Below are positions 58,598 through 64,000 of a stretch of DNA of 64,000 nucleotides, piece by piece. How positions within the stretch are numbered: the first letter of the stretch is position 1; the number at the start of each line of letters is the position of its first letter. Under the pieces are notes generated by a model that did no database searches, was not told the DNA's origin, and saw nothing but the letters and a program-made list of their open reading frames with translations. A program made the translations under genes and the position numbers. The stretch comes from Occallatibacter gabretensis (lineage in GTDB: Bacteria > Acidobacteriota > Terriglobia > Terriglobales > Acidobacteriaceae), in contig NZ_LAIJ01000001.1 of the NCBI RefSeq assembly GCF_001449115.1, positions 248,001-312,000 of the forward strand, given 5' to 3'.

Positions 58598-59827
58598 GTG
58601 AAAGTAATTATTACTTCAGGCGGAGGTAAGCTCCACTTTCATGAAACCGTCCGGGCTGTTGCATCGACGGGATCGAAGGTAGATTTCATCACGGGTTGGG
58701 TGCCAGGACCTGACGCGGACGCCCTGGTTGATCACCTGGGACGTTTGATTGGTGAACGTGGGTTGGCCGGCCGCATGCGGGCTCGTCGCGTGGAAGCGCC
58801 CGGCGTGACGATTCGGCCACTGGCATTCGCTGAATTTCTCGGTCGCGGCCTTATCTATCTAAGTAAAACCAGACTGGTCAAGCCATACATAACTTCCGCG
58901 TGGGCTTTTCAAGTTATGGGGATGGCAAGTCGTAAATATTTGCATAATGGAAATATCTTCCATGTACGCAGCGGTGCCGGCCAGGGGGGAGCTATCCGCA
59001 CGGCACGTGGAAACGGCATGAAGATAATTACGGATCATTCCATCGCGCATCCAGCCTATATGCATGCAGTGCTTAGAGACGAATATGCGCAAGCTGGACT
59101 GAAGTATGACGGAACCGTTCAAAAAGGATTATGGCGCGTCGTGCTCGACGATTGCGAGCAGGCGGATCGCTTGCTTGTGAATTCTGATTTTGTTAAGCGA
59201 ACCTTTATAGATGAAGGATACTCTTCCGAGAAAATTGACGTGGGTTATCTGGGCGTGGCGCCACGCTACTTTCATCTTAAACAGCGTTATGATTGCGATG
59301 GTCCAATCAAGCTATTGTTTACAGGAAACTTTGACCTTCGCAAAGGCGTACGCGTTTTATTGGAGGCAATTCGTAAGGTTCGACAAGGCGGAGTAGATGT
59401 TCGCTTACGATTAATCGGTAACATAACAAACGGACATATTTGGATAAAAGATTCGGACAAAGAGTTTCTAACACACACACCATTTGTTCCACCCGAAGCT
59501 ATTCTTCCAGCACTTTCAGAGGCGGATTTATTTGTCTTTCCAACCTTGATTGAAGGTTGCTCCCGCTCCGCAATGGAGGCGGCCGCGGCAGGTTTACCAG
59601 TGATCACTACGGAGAGCTCCGGTTTGCCTCTCGTCGATCGAAAATCAGTTTTCTACGTGCCGCTAAATAATGTGGAACGTTTGGCTGAAACCATCGCGGA
59701 AGCTGCGAAAGATCAAGCGTTGCGGGAGTCGATCGGTAGAGAGGCCGCTAATACAATTGCCCGCTCCTACACCTGGCCTCAGTATGGACAACAGCTTCAG
59801 AGTTTGTATCAGAAGCTTTTAAGTTAA
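58598..59827 (+). CDS. GT4-family glycosyltransferase
   Basis: This is a second GT-B glycosyltransferase of the cluster (409 aa). It starts at GTG 58598, with GAGGGG just upstream. The Rossmann-like C-half has KLLFTGNFDLRKGVRVLLEA, RLIGNITNGH and the donor-site block FVFPTLIEGCSRSAMEAAAAGLPVI, with the EX7E acidic pair in EGCSRSAME. The N-half starts MKVIITSGGGKLHFHETV. The sugar cannot be predicted. Its last codons overlap the end of the convergent acetyltransferase gene by 4 bp. Confidence 0.9.
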   Translation: MKVIITSGGGKLHFHETVRAVASTGSKVDFITGWVPGPDADALVDHLGRLIGERGLAGRMRARRVEAPGVTIRPLAFAEFLGRGLIYLSKTRLVKPYITSAWAFQVMGMASRKYLHNGNIFHVRSGAGQGGAIRTARGNGMKIITDHSIAHPAYMHAVLRDEYAQAGLKYDGTVQKGLWRVVLDDCEQADRLLVNSDFVKRTFIDEGYSSEKIDVGYLGVAPRYFHLKQRYDCDGPIKLLFTGNFDLRKGVRVLLEAIRKVRQGGVDVRLRLIGNITNGHIWIKDSDKEFLTHTPFVPPEAILPALSEADLFVFPTLIEGCSRSAMEAAAAGLPVITTESSGLPLVDRKSVFYVPLNNVERLAETIAEAAKDQALRESIGREAANTIARSYTWPQYGQQLQSLYQKLLS

Positions 59828-60420
59828 TGCTGGCTCGGGAATTCTCTGGTCTTTACTTTAACCGCCGGTACGCCTGCATAAACTCCCCATGGCTCAAGGT
59901 CGCGAGTTGCAACTGATCCAAGCCCCAGAACAGCATATTCTCCAACATGGACGCCAGGGCAAACCGATGCACGTGCACATATCCAGGCATAGGGCCCAAT
60001 GGTCATGGAATAAGCCAGCAGTGGAAATGCGGGGTCGTCGAAATCGTGGGTGGCGCCGCATATATATGCGCCCTGAGAGACTATGGCGTGCGATCCAAAT
60101 TGCATCGGGGCAGGGTTATAGATTTCAGCAGCATCTCCAGCGGTAACCTGGTCAGCGCAGGTCAGGTTCCAGGGAGCCCATATTTTTGATCCAGGATAGA
60201 AGTGGCAATTCGGACCCATCTTCGCGCCGAATGATCTGAGAAGAAAAGATCGCCAGGAATGTAATGGACGCGGCGAAGTTCGATAAAAAAAGAGCCAGCA
60301 AAAGTTCCAGATGAATCTGCGTAATTTGTTCGCAGTTGAAAATGATGCTCGCCGGTATGGATCACCGGCTGTGTTTGGAGCGATATGATCTGCCGCGTTG
60401 TAATGAAGATGTTTGGCCAT
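59824..60420 (-). CDS. WcaF-like acetyltransferase (left-handed beta-helix)
   Basis: This is a hexapeptide-repeat acyltransferase of the colanic-acid WcaF group, using acetyl-CoA to acetylate a sugar of the polymer. Its 198 residues contain an N-terminal helical section (LRRFIWNFCWLFFYRTSPRP), then left-handed beta-helix turns (FGAKMGPNCHFYPGSKIWAP...). The catalytic His is in CGATHDFDDP, and the family ending is VPAVKVKTREFP. The ATG at 60420 has AGGA 7 nt upstream. It is the only gene of the cluster on the minus strand and is convergent with the GT4 gene. Confidence 0.85.
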   Translation of the reverse strand: MAKHLHYNAADHIAPNTAGDPYRRASFSTANKLRRFIWNFCWLFFYRTSPRPLHSWRSFLLRSFGAKMGPNCHFYPGSKIWAPWNLTCADQVTAGDAAEIYNPAPMQFGSHAIVSQGAYICGATHDFDDPAFPLLAYSMTIGPYAWICARASVCPGVHVGEYAVLGLGSVATRDLEPWGVYAGVPAVKVKTREFPSQH

Positions 60421-60810: not shown

Positions 60811-61047
60811 ATGGACGAACAGCAAATATATGCTCGGCTGACAGAAATATTCAGCGACGTTTTTGATGACGATATTCAAGTGAATCCTGAACTTTCGGCC
60901 AAGGACGTGGACGGTTGGGACAGTCTCTCGCACATTCGGCTGATTCTTACGATTGAAAGAGCATTCAAGATCAAGTTTTCGACCTCGGAAATTGGCAAGC
61001 TGGAAAATGTAGGCCAACTTGTTGCGCTGATTAAAGCGCGCGCCTGA
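60811..61047 (+). CDS. Acyl carrier protein
   Basis: This is a 78-residue carrier protein with the phosphopantetheine attachment site S38 in GWDSLSHIRL. Four-helix composition and an acidic first helix (EIFSDVFDDD) are as expected. It is not the fatty-acid ACP by context, since no fab genes are near. It precedes the FkbH-like gene by 183 bp and would hold the small acyl unit that FkbH loads. The ATG at 60811 has GGGAG 6 nt upstream. Confidence 0.92.
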   Translation: MDEQQIYARLTEIFSDVFDDDIQVNPELSAKDVDGWDSLSHIRLILTIERAFKIKFSTSEIGKLENVGQLVALIKARA

Positions 61048-61230
61048 AGGTCTATTGCTTATTTTTTAGAGACGTTTGGATCGGTATCGCGAGAGAGTGA
61101 TACCTGCGGCAGCTGGGAAGTTCCAGAAAGTACTGTCCTGAAAAACATTCGACCTGGCTTATATGAGAGCCGGTGCTAAGCCTGCCGGGAATCTCCTTCA
61201 GGCAGTCATCACTTCTACGGAGACGTGCTG

Positions 61231-63162
61231 ATGAACTCACTATATTCAGAGTTGCAATGGCTTCCACGCGCACAAGAAGGGTTCTCAGAAAAGCTCAAGG
61301 GAATAGATAGCGCAACAGAGCCCCTGGGCAATCTGCTTCAGGCGCTTGCATTGCCCGCTCTCGACATCAATCAGTTGACCAAGCTGGCCAAGGCGCTCAA
61401 TCGGCTGCGTTCCGGACCGAAATCGCTTAGCCCACTGGTGCCGTTCAAGCTTGCAATTTTGAGCAACTCGACAGTCGAAATGATTGTGCCTGCTCTCGTG
61501 GCTTCGGCGTTGAGATATGGAATTGCGCTCGAGGTAATTCAGCCTTCTTACGATCAGGTCGCGCAAGAAGCGCTTACGCCTGACTCCAAGGTGAATATCT
61601 CTAAGCCGGATGCGGTGCTTTTCGCGCTTGACTATCGTGCGCTGCCCTTAAAGCTCTCTCTCGGAGACCCGGATGCTGCTTCTGGCACGGTGCAGGGAAC
61701 AATCGGCTACCTGCAGGCGCTGAGCAATGGCATTAAGACAAATTCGAATGCGCTTTGTATCTTTCAGTCCTTTGCTCCTCCGGTAGAGGCGCTCTTCGGT
61801 AGTCTCGATCGCACGTTGCCCGGTACGCTTCGAAATCTGGTCGAAAACATTAATCGAGAGCTTGGGGATTACGTCCTTGCTTCTGGAGACGTGCTGTTAG
61901 ATATTGCAGGGCTTGCGGAAACAGTAGGTCTGGCTGATTGGCATAACCCCCAGTTATGGAATATGGCTAAGTTCGCCTTTTCGGATGAATTGATACCGCT
62001 CTATGCGGATCATGTTGCTCGCACCATCGCATCCATTCGTGGCAAAAGCAGGAAGGTTCTCATTCTGGACCTGGACAACACAGTCTGGGGAGGAGTGATC
62101 GGCGATGACGGACTTGAAGGCATCAAGGTGGCGCAGGGTGATGCGCAGGGAGAAGCCCATCTTGCGGTTCAACGCATGGCGCTGGATCTGCGCCAGCGCG
62201 GAATCGTTCTTGCCGTTTCATCGAAGAATACAGACGAAGTAGCGCGTCAACCGTTTGAGAAGCATCCAGAAATGCTTCTTAAGCTCGATCATATTGCTGT
62301 TTTCCAGGCCAACTGGAACGATAAAGCAACAAATATTCAAGCCATTGCCAACGAGCTTTCACTCGGTCTCGACTCGATGGTGTTTCTGGATGATAACCCG
62401 GTTGAGCGTGGCCTCGTGCGTCAGTTGCTGCCGCAGGTGGCTGTTCCTGAGCTGCCCGAGGATCCAGCCTTTTATGCGAGAACGCTTGCTGCTGGCGGCT
62501 ACTTTGAAGCAGTTGCCTTTGCGGCAGAAGATTTGAAGCGTGCCGGCTTTTACCAGGACAATGCCAGGCGCGTGACGCTGCAAAAGCAGGCAGGCGGCGT
62601 CGATGCCTATCTGGCCTCGCTGGATATGGCAATTCAGTTTCAGCCCTTTGATGTAACTGGCAGAGCGCGCATCGTGCAGCTCATCAATAAATCGAATCAG
62701 TACAACCTGACTACGCGCCGCTATACCGATCCTGAAGCAGCTCAGGCTGAGGTCGATCCGGAAGTCTTTACGCTTCAGGTGCGGCTCACCGATGTTTTTG
62801 GCGACAACGGCATGATCAGCGTTGTGATTTGTCGGCCAGGCGAACCCGAAGTGTGGGAGATCGATACATGGCTGATGAGTTGCCGCGTGCTTGGACGCAA
62901 GGTTGAGCACATGGTGCTTCGTGAGATTCTGGAACACGCCCGCGCTGCCGGCATCAAAAAGCTCCTTGGCGTTTACAAGCCTACGGATCGCAATAAGCTT
63001 GTCATTGATCACTATGCCAAACTCGGATTCACCAAGACTGCAGAAGAAGAATCCGGACTGACGCGCTGGGAATTGATAGTTGAAGGAGCTACTCCTGACG
63101 TCGCCCCGATGAGGGTCGTATCGAGCGGCTTCGGGACGGTAAAGGAGACGACGCTGGTATGA
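61231..63162 (+). CDS. FkbH-like HAD-IIIC enzyme, probable glyceryl-carrier-protein loader
   Basis: FkbH-family enzymes dephosphorylate 1,3-bisphosphoglycerate and load the glyceryl group onto a carrier protein. The 643-residue protein has an N-terminal SGNH-like region (about 60-270, AILSNSTVEMIVPAL) and the HAD-IIIC domain with D280 and D282 in LILDLDNTVWGGVIGDDG, SSKNTDEVA and VFLDDNPVERGLV. A C-terminal GNAT-like domain (about 480-630, VIDHYAKLGF) completes it. This is the full FkbH architecture. The start is the ATG at 61231, with GGAG 8 nt upstream, rather than a GTG two codons earlier. The stop overlaps the next gene (ATGA). With the carrier protein before it and the SGNH protein after it, an acyl-transfer pathway is likely. 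The product is inferred. Confidence 0.88.
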   Translation: MNSLYSELQWLPRAQEGFSEKLKGIDSATEPLGNLLQALALPALDINQLTKLAKALNRLRSGPKSLSPLVPFKLAILSNSTVEMIVPALVASALRYGIALEVIQPSYDQVAQEALTPDSKVNISKPDAVLFALDYRALPLKLSLGDPDAASGTVQGTIGYLQALSNGIKTNSNALCIFQSFAPPVEALFGSLDRTLPGTLRNLVENINRELGDYVLASGDVLLDIAGLAETVGLADWHNPQLWNMAKFAFSDELIPLYADHVARTIASIRGKSRKVLILDLDNTVWGGVIGDDGLEGIKVAQGDAQGEAHLAVQRMALDLRQRGIVLAVSSKNTDEVARQPFEKHPEMLLKLDHIAVFQANWNDKATNIQAIANELSLGLDSMVFLDDNPVERGLVRQLLPQVAVPELPEDPAFYARTLAAGGYFEAVAFAAEDLKRAGFYQDNARRVTLQKQAGGVDAYLASLDMAIQFQPFDVTGRARIVQLINKSNQYNLTTRRYTDPEAAQAEVDPEVFTLQVRLTDVFGDNGMISVVICRPGEPEVWEIDTWLMSCRVLGRKVEHMVLREILEHARAAGIKKLLGVYKPTDRNKLVIDHYAKLGFTKTAEEESGLTRWELIVEGATPDVAPMRVVSSGFGTVKETTLV

Positions 63163-64000
63163 CGGTTCCAGGCCAGGGCTCTGACGGCGCCGCCTCCAAT
63201 GTTCAGGGAAATCGCAAAGTCTCGTCAAAGGATTGGATTATTCTGCCGCTGATCGGCCTTCTGACGATAAGCGGCCTCGTGATTGCTACCGAACTCGCCG
63301 CGCGGCGCATCTATTACAGGGCGCCGTCAAAGAGCAGCAGATGTCTGGTGTATAAAGATCCAGCAACGGGCCTCGGTGTGATGCCGAATACCGTCTGCAG
63401 AAACTCCGATACAGGGCAATTGATTGAATACCGTTTCAATGGCTGTGGGTTCCGCACAGATCTCTCCTGCACTCAGAAAGCGCCCGGAACTTACAGGATC
63501 GTCATGCTCGGTTCGTCGACTGCGATGGGCCTCGGCGTTACTCAGGAAAAAACCTTCGCTTCATTACTGCCCATCGAACTCTCTCAACTAACAGGACGCA
63601 ACGTAGAACTTTATGACGAAGGCCTTACGGCAAACCATCCTGAGCTGATCGCACGCTGGTTTAACCAGGCACTTGAGCCGAAACCTGATCTTTTGCTCTG
63701 GGTCGTTACTCCCTACGACGTCCAGGTCAGCGGGGAAGCGCCGGAAGCGGAACCAGAGGCACAAGCAGGCGCAGTGTCAAAAGCGCTGTTTTTTTTGAAG
63801 AACCGCCCTAAAGACGAATCCTTGCTGGATGCAATGCGATCCGTGTGGACGGATTATTCGAGAACCGCGATACTTCTCCGGCATACTCTGTACAAAAGCC
63901 AGAGCCAATTTCTCAGGTCCTACCTGGTAGGGGATGGCGTGTCGGGTTATATGAAGACGGAGCCCACTGAGCTATGGCAGAAACGCCTGAAACTATTCGA
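63159..64000 (+). CDS. Membrane-anchored SGNH/GDSL-type protein, 3'-truncated by the window edge
   Basis: The ATG at 63159 overlaps the FkbH stop by 4 nt, and the frame stays open to the end of the window (280 codons). One membrane span (about residues 26-48, WIILPLIGLLTISGLVI) puts the rest outside the cytoplasm. The SGNH block I is IVMLGSSTAMGLGV (G118, S119, nucleophile S120), with the following EKTFASLLP as in lipase-like esterases/acyltransferases. Block III (GxN) is not obvious; TANHPEL may correspond. The domain probably continues beyond the window. In this context it may transfer or remove an acyl group on the exported polymer. Confidence 0.8.
   Translation, partial: MTVPGQGSDGAASNVQGNRKVSSKDWIILPLIGLLTISGLVIATELAARRIYYRAPSKSSRCLVYKDPATGLGVMPNTVCRNSDTGQLIEYRFNGCGFRTDLSCTQKAPGTYRIVMLGSSTAMGLGVTQEKTFASLLPIELSQLTGRNVELYDEGLTANHPELIARWFNQALEPKPDLLLWVVTPYDVQVSGEAPEAEPEAQAGAVSKALFFLKNRPKDESLLDAMRSVWTDYSRTAILLRHTLYKSQSQFLRSYLVGDGVSGYMKTEPTELWQKRLKLF

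Follow-up and report, generated by a model that had tools for sequence, protein, structure and literature searches.

The locus at the end of the window, by which we mean the whole 64,000-nucleotide stretch of Occallatibacter gabretensis DNA analysed here, raises the question of what an acyl carrier protein (ACP) and an FkbH-type enzyme are doing among exopolysaccharide (EPS) genes, which flank them on both sides. A preliminary description had proposed that these two, together with a membrane-anchored SGNH protein, make glyceryl or related esters and install them on the polymer, and had foreseen an MBOAT protein just beyond the window. All three genes are present, ACP and FkbH by scores above the cut-offs of PF00550 and TIGR01686 and SGNH by its predicted fold, and the MBOAT gene does follow directly, itself followed by a gene for a fused MaoC dehydratase and SDR reductase (Table 1). 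The host is a soil bacterium.

Table 1. Genes of the cassette and its neighbours. Adding 59999 to an L002 position gives the window position.
Feature	Position	Strand	Remark
Acyl carrier protein (ACP), 78 aa	60811-61047	+	PF00550
FkbH open reading frame, 645 aa from GTG	61225-63162	+	TIGR01686
SGNH acyltransferase, N-terminal anchor	63159-64000, cut by window end	+	Full gene L002:3160-4368, 402 aa
MBOAT	L002:4380-5816, just past window	same strand	11 bp after SGNH gene
MaoC dehydratase-SDR reductase fusion	L002:5897-7330, past window	same strand	After MBOAT
WcaF-like gene	59824-60420	opposite strand	NF007797, 154.9 bits, below cut-off of 192
CpsB_CapC	L002:10753-11541		Downstream of cassette; Pfam

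The ACP scores 26.8 bits against its family model (cut-off 20.8) and carries the pantetheine-attachment Ser within DGWDSLSH, with a weak match to the DltC equivalog TIGR01688 (16.2 bits, cut-off 52.35). FkbH scores 287.9 bits against its own model (cut-off 146.65) and 36.2 bits against FkbH_N, PF21211 (cut-off 27), and its N-terminal and HAD parts match PDB entry 3slr (E 2.3e-62). The true start is likely the ATG at 61231, since alignments with homologues begin at residue 2 or 3. Both Asp residues of the HAD motif, D282-L-D284-N-T286, and the C-terminal Cys553 are kept in 87 of 88 aligned FkbH rows. As is usual for the family, the enzyme would take the C3 unit of 1,3-bisphosphoglycerate, remove the phosphate and place D-glyceryl on the ACP.

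FkbH enzymes are known from polyketide and nonribosomal peptide pathways (extracts from PMC8949500 and PMC3679948), and published excerpts describe the same pairing of FkbH and carrier protein there, loading glycerate or methoxymalonyl. That the locus is the start of such a pathway is nevertheless highly improbable. No PKS or NRPS gene was found in the 11 kb downstream (by inspection of open reading frames, with Pfam run on ten of them, L002:8248-18679) or among the reading frames inspected on either side of the cassette, and the earlier statement that no such locus is present thus holds immediately downstream. DltA-like adenylation domains, below cut-off, do occur in very long frames elsewhere in the genome, but these sit on other contigs. 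We reject a PKS or NRPS start because the inspected neighbourhood contains no such gene. Unlike the polyketide systems, the cassette appears to send its acyl group to the MBOAT-SGNH pair.

The MBOAT (PF03062, 54.8 bits, cut-off 27) has its catalytic His within W322-H323-G324, which is invariant in 20 rows. Its sole NCBIfam match is DltB, TIGR04091 (E 5e-48), at 164.2 bits against an equivalog cut-off of 375, and DltB also provides its only PDB matches. The C-terminus, IVYKAF, fits FXYXXF, named in an extract of PMC12148441 as the shuttle hexapeptide of DltX and PatA, although the first position is Ile, not Phe. This motif is fused to the MBOAT, and no separate DltX-like microprotein lies beside it. 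The MBOAT would be expected to pick the acyl group from ACP at the cytoplasmic face and pass it to the Tyr of IVYKAF.

The SGNH start overlaps the FkbH stop as ATGA, and the gene is translationally coupled to FkbH, as had been noted before. The protein falls below Pfam cut-offs (PF13472, 18.4 versus 32.9 bits; PF16822 ALGX, 16.8 versus 26.5 bits), and a sequence search of the PDB returns nothing up to E 5. Its structure model, with a mean pLDDT of 83.7 and a predicted helix at residues 23-51, has its best fold score with 8a2n (Z 21.4, 251 residues, 4.8 Å) and also matches 8ik1 (Z 18.2, 195 residues, 3.3 Å); structures of DltD, AlgX and PatB are absent among the fold matches listed, an absence that carries no weight. 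The SGNH identity is confirmed by this predicted fold. S120 and H364 are invariant in 22 aligned sequences, and some of the rows have N or E in place of the preceding Asp. The anchored protein would accept the acyl group on its Ser and esterify an extracytoplasmic glycan.

These features recall two known systems. Dlt, a microprotein system that uses a carrier protein according to part of PMC12148441, shares with the cassette, in the accounts excerpted, a dedicated enzyme that loads the carrier, a DltB-related MBOAT and an extracytoplasmic SGNH-type partner. Membership in Dlt proper is rejected, since the DltA, DltB and DltC model cut-offs are all missed; for the ligase DltA (TIGR01734) no match above cut-off occurs in the genome, the best reaching 268 bits versus 559.85. 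In the cassette FkbH replaces DltA, the shuttle motif of the window's type is fused to the MBOAT, and the host belongs to the Acidobacteriota. The expected cargo is a C3 hydroxy acid, whereas the Gram-positive, teichoic acid-directed Dlt system carries D-Ala, of which D-lactyl is the oxygen analogue. PatA/PatB and AlgI-type pairs resemble the cassette in the C-terminal FXYXXF motif fused to the MBOAT and in the anchored SGNH protein, but are described in an extract of PMC12148441 as using acyl-CoA with no carrier protein, whereas the cassette includes an ACP and its loader. By analogy with Dlt and PatAB, the acyl group may cross the membrane by way of the MBOAT with its C-terminal shuttle motif and the SGNH protein. 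We consider it probable that the cassette encodes a Dlt/PatAB-type transmembrane relay of a C3 acyl group with FkbH-loaded ACP as donor, a judgement that refers to the relay and not to the exact acyl group or acceptor.

The arrangement recurs in the order. In a survey of 397 genomes, 55 of 150 FkbH rows among the matches listed lie no more than 8 kb from an MBOAT row (on the same strand in 49 cases), against about 0.6 expected (0.55 by a rough estimate that assumes 5-Mb genomes); the FkbH-MBOAT neighbourhood thus exceeds chance. An ACP lies beside FkbH at 57 of 58 FkbH-linked MBOAT genes, a figure conditional on loci having been fetched for FkbH-MBOAT adjacency and obtained with a profile built from FkbH-adjacent carriers. 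The 58 genes represent 57 loci, as L105, which has a single FkbH, contributes two MBOATs, the second of them on a long branch; near-copies (L033/L034, L043/L097, L081/L082) were kept, and three near-identical loci (L041, L085, L091) were dropped. SGNH-like partner reading frames were called at 45 of the 57 loci solely from their place in the cassette, the presence of a single hydrophobic stretch and a motif resembling G[SDNT]S; those from other cassette types (L037, L072, L033, L081) have no Pfam match. Twenty control MBOATs without FkbH, drawn from among the first non-adjacent MBOAT rows with a few rows passed over, have no ACP or FkbH match beside them (0/20), and three further control loci (L163-L165) likewise have no ACP.

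The survey also bears on an alternative with two separate functions: a nucleotide sugar would receive an N- or O-acyl group made in the cytoplasm by ACP, FkbH and MaoC-SDR, and the adjoining SGNH and MBOAT would form an acetylation pair of their own that depends on acetyl-CoA. Among the matches listed, 95 of 150 FkbH rows have no MBOAT within 8 kb; at one locus, L048, an FkbH-ACP-MaoC-SDR set sits beside genes that, by eye, resemble a nonulosonic acid pathway; and all 20 control MBOATs carry the fused motif, as expected of acetyl-CoA users. Against this stand the recurrent FkbH-MBOAT adjacency, the MBOAT tree, along which FkbH linkage changes at least five times (L064 was labelled FkbH-linked in it despite having its FkbH on a different contig), and the coupling of the SGNH gene to FkbH in the window. 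A further argument comes from the shuttle itself. The fused motif is found in 45 of the 56 FkbH-linked MBOATs with a complete C-terminus, and the other 11, which lack it, all adjoin a one-helix microprotein ending VYQAF or VYQGF (ten found by scan, one by eye). The 11 cases form one clade, sister to the window's type on the MBOAT tree, and therefore count as one event. In that clade only, the cassette resembles Dlt in having a separate DltX-like microprotein, as DltX serves DltB. Assignment to DltX by family models is rejected: for the microprotein, Pfam gives nothing above cut-off and NCBIfam no match at all. Such microproteins are seen only beside FkbH-linked MBOATs, and Dlt is carrier-protein-based. 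We judge two unconnected pathways to be unlikely and retain the ACP-fed relay. The control motif scan admitted Ser at the first position, which the first scan did not, and L108 was missed in the first scan for that reason.

The MaoC-SDR fusion bears on which group is carried. Its MaoC part (PF01575, 41 bits, cut-off 27) and SDR part (PF00106, 29.9 bits, cut-off 26.6) retain catalytic residues (D23, N25, H28 and S400, Y414, K418) that are invariant in 11 rows, and its structure model has a mean pLDDT of 87.2. The fusion could strip the 3-OH of the glyceryl group, giving an enol/pyruvyl thioester that is then reduced to lactyl-ACP. Bryostatin has an FkbH-DH-KR route to a lactyl starter, one that our search of open-licence literature did not find. 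Taken alone, conversion of glyceryl-ACP to lactyl-ACP by MaoC-SDR has, in our estimate, a little under an even chance. A competing view keeps the relay and makes the cargo plain glyceryl, the fusion having another role or another carrier. In its favour, no MaoC domain lies close to the cassette at 43 of the 57 loci, which implies that the relay works without MaoC-SDR; moreover, one relative of the window's type has its MaoC-SDR (71% identical) on a different contig from the cassette, and native gellan, according to an extract of PMC4392319, bears L-glyceryl esters, so that an exopolysaccharide esterified with a C3 hydroxy acid has a precedent. No gene link between gellan glycerylation and FkbH was found in the open-licence literature searched. 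The fusion is rare, however, and associated with FkbH: it is present in 3 of 199 genomes of the phylum, FkbH-adjacent in all three, and 19 of 19 order genomes with MaoC-SDR have an FkbH match, compared with 177 of all 397. Within the order, 12 of 20 matches adjoin FkbH, three more adjoin an MBOAT and three copies are near neither; in other cassettes separate MaoC and SDR genes occupy the place of the fusion. With the catalytic residues of both parts intact, plain glyceryl seems to us rather doubtful. The earlier proposal is supported in part, but plain glyceryl is less likely than lactyl as the group installed by the window's cassette, because this cassette holds an FkbH-associated MaoC-SDR fusion.

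The acceptor glycan would most likely be the neighbouring exopolysaccharide, as first proposed. EPS genes do flank the locus, but in the stretch examined homologues of EPS genes accompany no more than 5 of the 18 cassettes of the window's type; the other 13 lack them, so a different acceptor is conceivable. The EPS link is weak for the window's type and clear for cassettes with the microprotein, where it is seen at 10 of 11 loci; a strictly EPS-bound cassette is unsupported by the 5 of 18 loci. Adjacency is the basis for the suggested parallel acetylation by the WcaF-like enzyme.

More tentatively still, the cassette may exemplify a second, widespread form of carrier-protein-fed transmembrane acylation, in which glycolytic 1,3-bisphosphoglycerate passes through FkbH, a tailored ACP-acyl, MBOAT and SGNH to give glyceryl or lactyl esters on Acidobacteriota surface polymers. 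The tailoring would be interchangeable, with MaoC-SDR leading to lactyl and a protein resembling VOC epimerases perhaps giving the opposite stereoisomer, and the tyrosine shuttle of the MBOAT could be fused or separate. A search of open-licence literature found no description of a cassette with FkbH and MBOAT; extracts on cyanobacterial peptide pathways treat the two as separate steps. If the reading is correct, Dlt-type acyl relays reach beyond D-alanine and teichoic acids, FkbH enzymes gain a role outside antibiotics, and these are candidate genes for decorating polysaccharides with esters of the glyceryl or lactyl type, of which native gellan offers a known case. The matching of a carrier-protein donor to an MBOAT would also become readily testable, and the order is suited to this because some of its related MBOATs have ACP-FkbH and others lack it, and their shuttles may be fused or separate. 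In favour of the relay, one genome has a split cassette, with SGNH-MBOAT and ACP-FkbH (80 and 79% identical to those of the window) on different contigs; against it, in the relative L064/L117 FkbH is missing beside the pair and an AT3 gene lies between SGNH and MBOAT.

The ACP, FkbH and SGNH genes lie where the preliminary description placed them, as judged by open reading frames (ORFs) and family profile matches, and the MBOAT that it had supposed to lie beyond the window is indeed there, followed by a MaoC-SDR fusion. The FkbH and SGNH genes share an ATGA overlap, and a 390-bp gap separates the ACP gene from the WcaF-like gene and the EPS locus. The same description held that a PKS or NRPS locus immediately downstream would speak against its reading; ORF inspection and family profiles found no such gene among the ORFs downstream of the cassette in L002, the next stretch of the contig. 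The genome (5.35 Mb, 19 contigs) has its relatives in the Acidobacteriota, such as Granulicella and Terracidiphilus records.

Features of the cassette, its surroundings (window, C1:248001-312000; L002 position p is window position 59999+p) and loci fetched from related genomes
Feature	Position	Strand	Remark
WcaF-like gene	59824-60420	opposite	
ACP	60811-61047	+	
FkbH	61225-63162	+	
SGNH	from 63159	+	402 aa; complete in L002
MBOAT	L002:4380-5816	+	478 aa; 11 bp past SGNH
MaoC-SDR fusion	L002:5897-7330	+	477 aa; 80 bp past MBOAT
ORF	L002:7469-8215		248 aa; no Pfam or NCBIfam match
Xylose-isomerase-like protein			downstream
GFO/IDH oxidoreductase			downstream
CpsB/CapC-type protein			downstream
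Triosephosphate isomerase, phosphoglycerate kinase, glyceraldehyde-3-phosphate dehydrogenase (GAPDH)	L002:11592-17640 (window 71591-77639)		4-10 kb downstream of cassette
PIN-domain proteins			downstream, after triosephosphate isomerase
VOC proteins	L061:9453-10169, L062:9512-9961, L064:9483-10244, L089:6239-6730		near FkbH; more at other FkbH loci
ACP, FkbH, MaoC-SDR set	L048:8411-11962		no MBOAT
Acyltransferase-3-like gene (by eye)	L064:6637-7785		between SGNH and MBOAT; ACP/FkbH on another contig
Site in a window's-type cassette	L065:9443-10618		two SGNH genes around one MBOAT

The only NCBIfam match of the window MBOAT is DltB (164 bits, under the equivalog cut-off of 375), the PDB chains that match it are DltB only, and its C-terminus ends in IVYKAF. 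DltB accepts D-Ala carried by DltC, a carrier protein, and hands it on to the Tyr in the FXYXXF motif of the microprotein DltX, and this motif is fused to the C-terminus of PatA and other bacterial MBOATs (PMC12148441). By its sequence, then, the window MBOAT is DltB-like and carries a predicted acyl shuttle. With an ACP nearby, the fused shuttle is therefore combined with a neighbouring carrier protein; the PatA-like pathways, as outlined in PMC12148441, share the fused motif but lack a carrier protein because acyl-CoA is used. The cassette works like Dlt in this reading: FkbH would load the ACP, and the MBOAT and SGNH protein would then pass the acyl group, taken directly from the ACP, to a glycan. 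The tests applied nonetheless set it apart from Dlt, since its matches fall below the cut-offs of the DltA, DltB and DltC models. Gene content, shuttle motif, recurrence and the DltX-like microprotein of a sister clade are observed; how the ACP is loaded, which acyl group it carries, its handover to the MBOAT and the acceptor are inferred.

The association of FkbH with MBOAT is widespread and real. Among the matches listed for 397 genomes of the order (150 MBOAT and 150 FkbH rows), 55 FkbH rows have an MBOAT row no more than 8 kb away, in 49 cases on the same strand, versus about 0.55 such pairs expected. Among the fetched loci, 57 contain MBOAT genes linked to FkbH, 58 distinct genes in all; for 57 of the 58 an ACP lies beside FkbH, the sole exception being an FkbH truncated by a contig end; in the stretches fetched around 20 MBOATs without FkbH, no ACP or FkbH match occurs, and all 20 carry the fused motif. 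The tree of 77 MBOATs implies that linkage to FkbH changed five times or more on well-supported branches. In it, the 18 rows of the window's type and the 11 rows of a sister clade, the microprotein type, form one group (support 100/99) in which every row is labelled FkbH-linked, including that of L064, although its FkbH sits on another contig. In that genome (L064/L117/L131), SGNH-MBOAT occupies a separate contig from ACP and FkbH, which share 80 and 79% identity with their counterparts in the window.

Among the 56 FkbH-linked MBOATs whose C-terminus is complete, the motif closes the sequence in 45, while the remaining 11 stop short of it (48 and 11 of 59 if three near-identical copies are counted). 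Scanning 1.44 Mb for short ORFs (30-110 aa) with one helix and the motif at the end returned 14; ten of these adjoin ten of the 11 motif-less MBOATs and all end in NLVYQAF, and the other four are not beside any motif-less MBOAT. For the eleventh, at L108, an ATG-initiated ORF between ACP and SGNH ends in GSVYQGF, and was found by eye because Ser takes the first motif position. Neither Pfam (above cut-off) nor NCBIfam recognises the microprotein. All eleven motif-less MBOATs fall in one clade, and therefore reflect one evolutionary event; together with their microproteins they reproduce the DltB-DltX arrangement.

In pathways that have been characterised, 1,3-bisphosphoglycerate is the source of the glyceryl that FkbH loads (PMC8949500, PMC3679948). 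Each of the two HAD aspartates, and likewise the C-terminal cysteine, is kept in 87 of 88 FkbH rows. The MaoC-SDR fusion occurs in 3 of 199 phylum-sample genomes, adjoining FkbH and ACP in all three in differing gene orders, and in 19 of the 397 genomes of the order (20 rows); an FkbH match is found in 19/19 of these, versus 177/397 overall. Twelve of the 20 rows adjoin FkbH, three adjoin MBOAT with FkbH on another contig, two meet a contig end and three are near neither. Other cassettes have separate MaoC and SDR genes after ACP (L083, L094 and L102 by Pfam, L109 by eye). Counting all kinds, a MaoC domain occurs close to FkbH or MBOAT at 14 of 57 loci. The catalytic residues of both parts are invariant in 11 fusions, the PDB matches are SDRs, and in the structure model a Rossmann domain comes after two hot-dog-like stretches. 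Given glyceryl-ACP as substrate, the fusion would remove the 3-OH and then reduce the product to lactyl-ACP. For such a route from FkbH-loaded glyceryl to lactyl-ACP, the starter unit of bryostatin offers a precedent.

A VOC protein resembling methylmalonyl-CoA epimerase also recurs near FkbH, with 20 ORFs in FkbH-set loci (duplicate contigs included) versus none in 20 control loci; the L081 member scores 49.8 bits against TIGR03081, under the cut-off of 114.95. Within the window's type, its gene follows MBOAT in cassettes without MaoC-SDR, and L094 has both VOC and MaoC-type genes. It is perhaps an alternative tailoring step, e.g. epimerisation. Genes adjoining the L048 set resemble, by eye, a nonulosonic-acid pathway, and that set perhaps serves cytoplasmic N-acylation of a sugar.

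In the structure model of the SGNH protein, built from 22 homologues (mean pLDDT 83.7), residues 23-51 form an N-terminal helix and the fold is of the SGNH kind, with Z 21.4 to 8a2n as the best score and 18.2 to 8ik1. S120 and H364 are invariant in the alignment, and a few rows have another residue in place of the Asp before the His. At 45 of 57 loci, MBOAT has a same-strand neighbour ORF with a hydrophobic stretch early in its sequence and a motif resembling G-x-S; in other cassette types this partner is only a positional call, because Pfam recognised none of the four tested. Some window's-type cassettes (L065, L114, L120) have two SGNH genes around one MBOAT.

Of the microprotein-type loci, 10 of 11 contain homologues of the window's EPS genes; the figure is 5 of 18 for the window's type, 1 of 28 for the remaining FkbH-MBOAT loci and 1 of 20 for the controls. 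For the microprotein type, then, EPS probably receives the acyl group; it is also a plausible acceptor for the window's cassette, where EPS genes flank one side of the cassette and the CpsB/CapC-type gene the other. For the type as a whole, the EPS decoration first proposed is weakened: some relatives carry the cassette outside EPS loci, and the polymer that is acylated may be a different glycan or one made elsewhere. The three enzymes around 1,3-bisphosphoglycerate encoded downstream are possibly near the cassette by chance.
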